The notes beneath the pieces are model-generated. The model saw only the letters and a program-made list of their open reading frames with translations, had not been told where the DNA came from and searched no databases. DNA of 64,000 nt from assembly GCF_001983935.1 (NCBI RefSeq), contig NZ_CP017641.1, positions 5,799,001 to 5,863,000 of the forward strand. Direction: 5' to 3'. Source of the DNA: Fuerstiella marisgermanici. GTDB taxonomy: Bacteria > Planctomycetota > Planctomycetia > Planctomycetales > Planctomycetaceae. This document shows positions 45,185-46,176 of the stretch, piece after piece. The stretch's first letter is position 1. The number at the start of each line of letters is the position of its first letter. Position numbers and translations under genes: made by a program.

Positions 45185-45649
45185 CTATTCCCAGCCATTC
45201 ACCTTCAGGAACTGGTCCTTCCAGTAATAGTCCTCCAGAATTCCGTCAATCGGCCGCTGCATGATTTGCAGCGCCGCGTAGACGGCTTCGACGGTGGCAA
45301 GACCACCTGTCGGGTCCTGCGACACCTTCGACACGCGCGGATACGCCGTCGCGGTTGCGGGCAATGTTCGAACCGGAACGTGCTTGTAGAACGGTTCCAT
45401 TCTTGCGGCCAGCTTCCACGTGCCGTCCAAAACAAGTAATCCGGCGGCGGCGTCTTCAGACGATAGCTCTGGCCCGCCGAGTCCCAGCCGGATGTAGCCG
45501 TCCAGCGGCAAGTCCACCGGGTCGGGGAATTTCACAAAGTGAAAATCGTCTCGCCCGCGCAGCGGTTCGACAGAACATTTGCTGCGACGTTCTTTGGGAT
45601 GCACCACGATGATTGTTGGCGGCGCGACTTCGAAGTCCGATGAGGCCAT
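45185..45649 (-). CDS. Tsr3/DTW-like putative RNA aminocarboxypropyltransferase
   Basis: 154 residues. The segment [16 protein letters not shown] carries the DGTW motif, and [16 protein letters not shown] with [13 protein letters not shown] follows the layout of the SPOUT-like Tsr3/DTW superfamily, which transfers the aminocarboxypropyl group of SAM to RNA (Tsr3 in 18S rRNA, TapT-type DTW proteins in tRNA). The N-terminal [10 protein letters not shown] resembles the DPKKCSG stretch of Tsr3. It is shorter than Tsr3 and the substrate is unknown. It converges with the secretion operon. Confidence 0.6.
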
Positions 45650-45723: not shown

Positions 45724-45988
45724 GCTTAGAACCCTAACAAAACCTGTGTGAGCCGCGACGTTTGTGGTTTCGTTTCAGGCAAGAAGTGAGGAGGAGGCGA
45801 CAAATGTCGTCGACGACGAACGACGCCGCCTGAGGCGGAACCACAAGCGGCCCGGAGGGTTGCGACGACAGCAGCCGATCTGCGGCGTCAGCGCTCCTCG
45901 ACGACATCTGTCGCCTCGTCACTTTTCCTTGCATCTCGACCACTGTCATCACAACGCGGCCACACAGGTTTTGTTAGGGGTTCTTAAG
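45724..45988. mobile_element. MITE-like imperfect hairpin element (about 265 bp)
   Basis: Terminal repeats 45732-45750 and 45961-45979 (19 bp, perfect) extend outwards with one-base bulges to TTA/TAA ends at 45726 and 45987. Further inner pairs follow in order: GCCGCG/CGCGGC, GTGGT/ACCAC (45764-45768 with 45939-45943), 45779-45789 with 45919-45932, 45795-45813 with 45898-45916, and 45822-45829 with 45882-45889. The element thus folds into a single long hairpin with a loop of about 50 nt. It codes for nothing, and no transposase is in the window. It is bounded by the Tsr3-like gene and a small coiled-coil gene. Confidence 0.75.
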
Positions 45989-45999
45989 ATTCAGCCACA

Positions 46000-46176
46000 T
46001 CAGGCGTTCTTGATTTTTTCGATTTCCGCCTGGTAGCCGGCCACTTCTTTCTCCAGTCGCGGCACGTCGGCAGGGTCGTCAGGTTGGTTCTTGGCGGCGG
46101 AAAGCAGCGTTTGTGCCTTCTGCATCTTATTCTTAAGCGCTTCGATTTGCTTCTTTTGCTTCTTGTTCAGTGCCAT
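46000..46176 (-). CDS. Small charged coiled-coil protein
   Basis: 58 residues from the ATG at 46176: NKKQKKQIEALKNKMQKAQT, then LLSAAKNQPDDPADVPRLEK and a final helix ending KIKNA. The two Lys/Glu-rich helices are predicted to form a coiled coil; there is no signal peptide. A frame extending to 46272 adds an unrelated Cys-rich stretch. The stop lies 12 bp beyond the hairpin element. The function is not recognised; it could bind RNA or another protein. Confidence 0.6.
   Translation of the reverse strand: MALNKKQKKQIEALKNKMQKAQTLLSAAKNQPDDPADVPRLEKEVAGYQAEIEKIKNA

Follow-up and report, generated by a model that had tools for sequence, protein, structure and literature searches.

A new MITE family with a conserved branched palindrome in Fuerstiella marisgermanici and its probable driver, an IS427-like transposase of the IS5 family

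A short palindromic element of Fuerstiella marisgermanici was analysed in its context, a window of 64,000 nucleotides (the whole stretch of DNA studied, positions 5,799,001 to 5,863,000 of contig NZ_CP017641.1). We conclude with high confidence that it belongs to a family of MITEs inserted at C-TWA-G sites. An IS427-like transposase of the IS5 family most likely drives it in trans, and its palindrome is most likely kept at the level of DNA. Copies with common ends recur in the host genome and in relatives, most lie between direct 3-bp target duplications, the site in the window is empty in related genomes, and IS elements with matching ends are present in other genomes.

The limits of the MITE were fixed by aligning copies whose flanks are unrelated. 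Its parts, in window positions, are as follows.

45729-45983, no strand assigned: MITE, 255 bp here and 256 bp in most other copies
45726-45728, no strand assigned: left copy of the target duplication, TTA, 3 bp
45984-45986, no strand assigned: right copy of the target duplication, TTA, 3 bp
45729-45750, plus strand: left terminal inverted repeat, one C short of other copies
45961-45983, minus strand: right terminal inverted repeat
45729-45757, no strand assigned: outer stem, 5' side (helix 1), partner of 45955-45983
45955-45983, no strand assigned: outer stem, 3' side (helix 1 of the conserved fold)
45759-45849, no strand assigned: left arm, a separate hairpin (helices 2 and 3), with many two-sided changes
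45851-45859, no strand assigned: short hairpin between the arms (helix 4, 3 pairs)
45860-45954, no strand assigned: right arm (helices 5 to 7), its lower stem showing two-sided changes

The first-pass annotation had described perfect 19-bp repeats at 45732-45750 and 45961-45979. These are present and extend outward to 45729 and 45983, giving terminal inverted repeats of 22-23 bp overall. The left end of the window copy reads GAACCCTAAC and that of the other copies GAACCCCTAAC; the missing C accounts for its length of 255 rather than 256 bp. The target duplication, thought at first to be of TA type, is instead a direct 3-bp repeat of TWA, here TTA on both sides. The element was also said to encode nothing, and no conserved open reading frame was found: of 35 copies, most have stops in each of the six frames, and variation among them shows no codon periodicity.

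A BLAST search of the complete host genome (8.92 Mb) with the MITE returned 77 matches, about 22 of them near-full copies of 91-100% identity. The remainder are several diverged or internally deleted copies, fragments, and many matches of one arm against the other. The element is thus far from being single-copy, the result that would have told against mobility. Flanks were compared across an alignment of 22 copies, of which 20 belong to the host and two to relatives. Identical 3-bp flanks were found by script in 15 of the 22, and in 16 when the boundary of the window copy was set by hand; flank identity never reached 4 bp or more. With one exception the duplicated bases are TTA or TAA, often in the context C-TWA-G, and in about six copies the duplication is imperfect. 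All 20 host copies checked are intergenic, as judged on genes predicted by a simple codon-score method, and their orientation relative to neighbouring genes looks random. Matches at E<=1e-20 occur patchily in nine of 170 genomes of the bacterial family, mostly as several copies each, and no relatives of the MITE were found on plasmids. Host copies are on average about 93% identical to one another and 82-86% identical to copies in other genomes.

The insertion site in the window lies between two genes.

45185-45649, minus strand: DTW-domain-like gene (Pfam match just below cut-off)
46000-46176, minus strand: lysine-rich small gene

In all eight relatives tested (seven of the same genus, one of another), these genes are adjacent and the MITE is missing. 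The intergenic DNA is too diverged for a base-by-base alignment, and the empty site is therefore defined by the adjacency of the genes and the lack of the MITE rather than by an exact junction. With these eight empty sites, the near-full copies, the target duplications and the copies in other genera bear out the earlier suggestion of a non-autonomous transposable element.

Copies L009 and L010 (G000:C1:3061922 and 2579936) have near-identical flanks on both sides and therefore represent one duplicated segment, not independent insertions. The right end of copy L011 (G000:C1:7307401-7307657) is cut by CCCAACTT...CTCGAGTCACGAAGGC, the end sequence of a different multi-copy host IS with a 621-623-aa transposase; an unrelated IS thus appears to have inserted into the end of this copy. 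A host sub-family (L073, 3953-4100; L075, 3454-3580; L077, 3388-3649) has a similar interior and GAACCYATCCGAAAACC-type ends; both sides are altered, suggesting that the ends of another transposase were adopted. One relative (G012 contigs, e.g. L096, L102 and L105; L192, 7580-7631) is rich in minimal derivatives about 47-52 bp long, which consist of the outer stem and a short loop and in many cases have TWA flanks. Six contigs of another genome, G004 (L103, L106, L116, L118, L120 and L122), end just inside two common terminal sequences, TWA-GAACGCCTAACAAAACCGTTC... and ...CCGATGTTG...; this is the pattern expected if the assembler had dropped a longer multi-copy element bearing those ends.

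The MITE ends, GAACNCCTAACAAAACC, match those of complete IS5-family (IS427-like) elements of 844-1750 bp. When bacterial and archaeal genomes were scanned for exact matches to TWAGAACNCCTNACAAAACC, many planctomycete contigs with 256-bp elements were recovered, and also IS-sized elements bearing these ends in inverted orientation. The latter were the following.

L201, from a planctomycete MAG: 901 bp, with TAA/TAA flanks
Faecalibacterium: 861 bp
Xanthobacter: 858 bp
Paracoccus: 845 bp
Rhodobacteraceae: 844 bp
Massilia: 1750 bp

The L201 transposase has 268 aa and matches NF033580 (IS5 family) at 2.7e-72, with PF13340 and PF01609 over cut-off. Together with four elements from relatives, ten IS elements were examined. 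Complete or degraded, they have ends the same as or similar to those of the MITE, and most are flanked by TWA. All ten encode a transposase related to that of L201, in several cases in two overlapping frames or broken. One broken IS with MITE-type ends is in G005, a MITE carrier of the same genus as the host. On size, overlapping frames and family matches, these elements appear to be IS427-like. Homology between the MITE and the IS elements ends after 17-20 bp at each end; the MITE interior therefore did not arise by internal deletion from any of the IS elements found.

The complete host genome gave no match with the L201 protein, nor with profiles PF13340, PF13359 and PF13586. It also contains no IS with ends matching the MITE, so that the case for the enzyme is drawn from other genomes. 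Since a matching transposase is absent, the MITE seems to be stranded in this host. The IS load of the host is heavy, with 65 PF01609 matches that mostly belong to multi-copy groups of near-identical members. The PF01609 IS groups that were checked as a source of the MITE ends have different ends.

We propose that the MITE ends would be recognised in trans by the IS5-family, IS427-like transposase, which would insert the element at intergenic C-TWA-G sites and double the 3-bp TWA. As the complete host genome is now without its gene, the enzyme has presumably been lost from the host lineage or merely passed through it. Over the long term, the outer stem and two arms have kept their self-complementarity, most likely as DNA. 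Quasi-palindromes may have been corrected by fold-back template switching, copies that pair well may have spread preferentially, or both.

The element had been read as one long hairpin. Its inverted-repeat content is indeed beyond chance, the 265 nt folding as RNA at -139.7 kcal/mol compared with -89.3 +/- 5.0 for shuffles (z = -10). The conserved fold is a different one. RNAalifold analysis of 35 copies gave an outer stem and two arms and no single long hairpin, and many of the relatives' copies adopt this branched fold when folded singly. Fold statistics were compiled on 24 distinct copies from several genera. In the branched fold 95.3% of cells are paired, and two-sided changes affect 28 pairs, compared with 12.6 in shuffled and 6-13 in slid controls. 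Because the fold was derived from the same sequences, the slid control flatters it on pairing percentage. Stronger evidence comes from mapping on a tree, which gave 30 double changes as against 1-4 for slid partners, a count that recombination between copies could disturb. The short hairpin at 45851-45859 is invariant except for one unpaired cell, and is therefore weakly tested. With the single hairpin 86.3% of cells are paired; the outer stem is common to both folds and holds most of its two-sided changes, with only five such pairs outside it. The single long hairpin is thus rejected as the conserved fold and is only the minimum-energy fold of the window copy. The compensatory changes sought in related genomes are present.

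These changes do not carry the signature of a selected RNA, for which G-U intermediates would be expected to exceed A-C ones on the transcribed strand. Among pairs shared by the folds of the two strands, changes from Watson-Crick to G-U (20) were as frequent as those to A-C (21), and neither strand showed a preference for G-U. Of 27 double changes, 19 are transversional, a route that G-U intermediates do not allow. DNA-level maintenance is accordingly favoured over RNA, and the data point to upkeep of the palindrome as DNA. In E. coli, fold-back template switching is known to make quasipalindromes more perfect (PMC7202029), and it has been put forward as a means of maintaining the stems of RNA genes (PMC8794818). 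Short terminal branches of the tree carry 48 pair-breaking changes and two double changes; internal branches carry 15 and 12, respectively. The share of double changes is 12/27 on internal branches and 18/95 on terminal ones (P = 0.011). With breaks so far in excess of doubles on short terminal branches, either correction is slow or well-paired copies found lineages. Among the young copies of the host, cases of one substitution segregating on both arms were no commoner than chance predicts (two pairs, 1.1 expected), and double changes adjacent on one branch numbered three, with 1.3 expected (P = 0.13).

It is conceivable, though rather unlikely, that selection acts on the arms as a DNA structure, with transposition or tolerance needing extruded hairpins. 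Pairing preserved without tolerance of G-U is consistent with this, as is the excess of double changes on internal branches, as if broken copies found no lineages. However, slow template-switch correction predicts the same branch pattern, and many short derivatives without one or both arms are also flanked by TWA, so that the arms are not strictly required for insertion. A more specific form, in which copies able to extrude stem and arms are mobilised or tolerated better, and which would make this a DDE-transposase MITE dependent on folded DNA, we regard as less likely still. If it were true, broken pairs would gather in dead copies while source lineages stay paired; the observed branch pattern fits this, but it is not the only explanation of that pattern.

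The first-pass annotation had offered a structured non-coding RNA as the alternative to a transposable element. As a mobile RNA, the element would be transcribed and its branched fold selected as RNA, the terminal repeats serving only to spread it. The strong covariation on the branched fold is what such an RNA would show, and an interior conserved across genera, in an element whose length stays near 256 bp, would also fit. However, the equal rates of G-U and A-C change and the mostly transversional double changes are better explained by maintenance as DNA. Both strands fold about equally well, with no RNA-strand asymmetry, and no promoter-like site was found within the MITE, whose orientation to neighbouring genes, as noted above, looks random. 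Rfam gave no match at gathering score in the relatives' copies and only sub-threshold matches in the window copy. We therefore consider an RNA very improbable. A REP/BIME-like or other host-amplified palindromic repeat would likewise be palindromic, intergenic and multi-copy, but the fixed 3-bp target duplication, the empty sites and the ends common to IS5-family elements contradict it, and it can effectively be dismissed in favour of a DNA transposon.

The MITE family was compared with known systems. TTA/TAA target duplications are typical of eukaryotic Tourist/PIF-Harbinger MITEs. Unlike those, the present MITE has ends matching bacterial IS5-family elements, and a PIF/Harbinger-type transposase was rejected as its driver, the host being without a PF13359 match. 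Elements of the IS427 group (e.g. IS1248, ISPpa2 and ISPha1) are 832-865 bp long with the transposase in overlapping frames (PMC3281130). The IS elements with the 17-bp MITE end motif encode IS5-family transposases, several in two frames, and are commonly 844-901 bp, near the group size. The MITE itself, in contrast, lacks a transposase, has only 17-20 bp in common with them at each end, and duplicates 3 bp (TWA), whereas members of the group mostly duplicate 2 bp and ISPha1 4 (PMC3281130). By description rather than by sequence, the family resembles the bacterial MITEs QMITE1 and QMITE2 of Coxiella (PMC5896051) and that of Porphyromonas gingivalis (PMC4596501) in being short and non-coding, with terminal inverted repeats, target duplications and many copies. 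It differs from them in its hosts, and its interior is a branched palindromic fold that changes on both sides of the stems have preserved from genus to genus. Quasipalindrome template-switch correction (PMC7202029; PMC8794818), which perfects imperfect inverted repeats and changes both sides of a stem, is a process and not an element, and is here a presumed cause.

A literature search on planctomycetes and MITEs listed no publication on this element, and nothing came from searches on ERIC/MITE structure or on the transposases of F. marisgermanici. The family is new and of an ordinary kind, most likely IS5/IS427-driven, with a branched palindrome that is unusually well kept. It adds a well-delimited planctomycete MITE family together with its likely IS5/IS427-type driver and, because the complete host genome is without that driver, it illustrates how such elements may outlast their enzyme. 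Two-sided compensatory changes, usually taken to prove a functional RNA, arise here in a transposable palindrome. As this covariation comes without a G-U preference, strand symmetry should be checked in palindromic repeats before a functional RNA is claimed.
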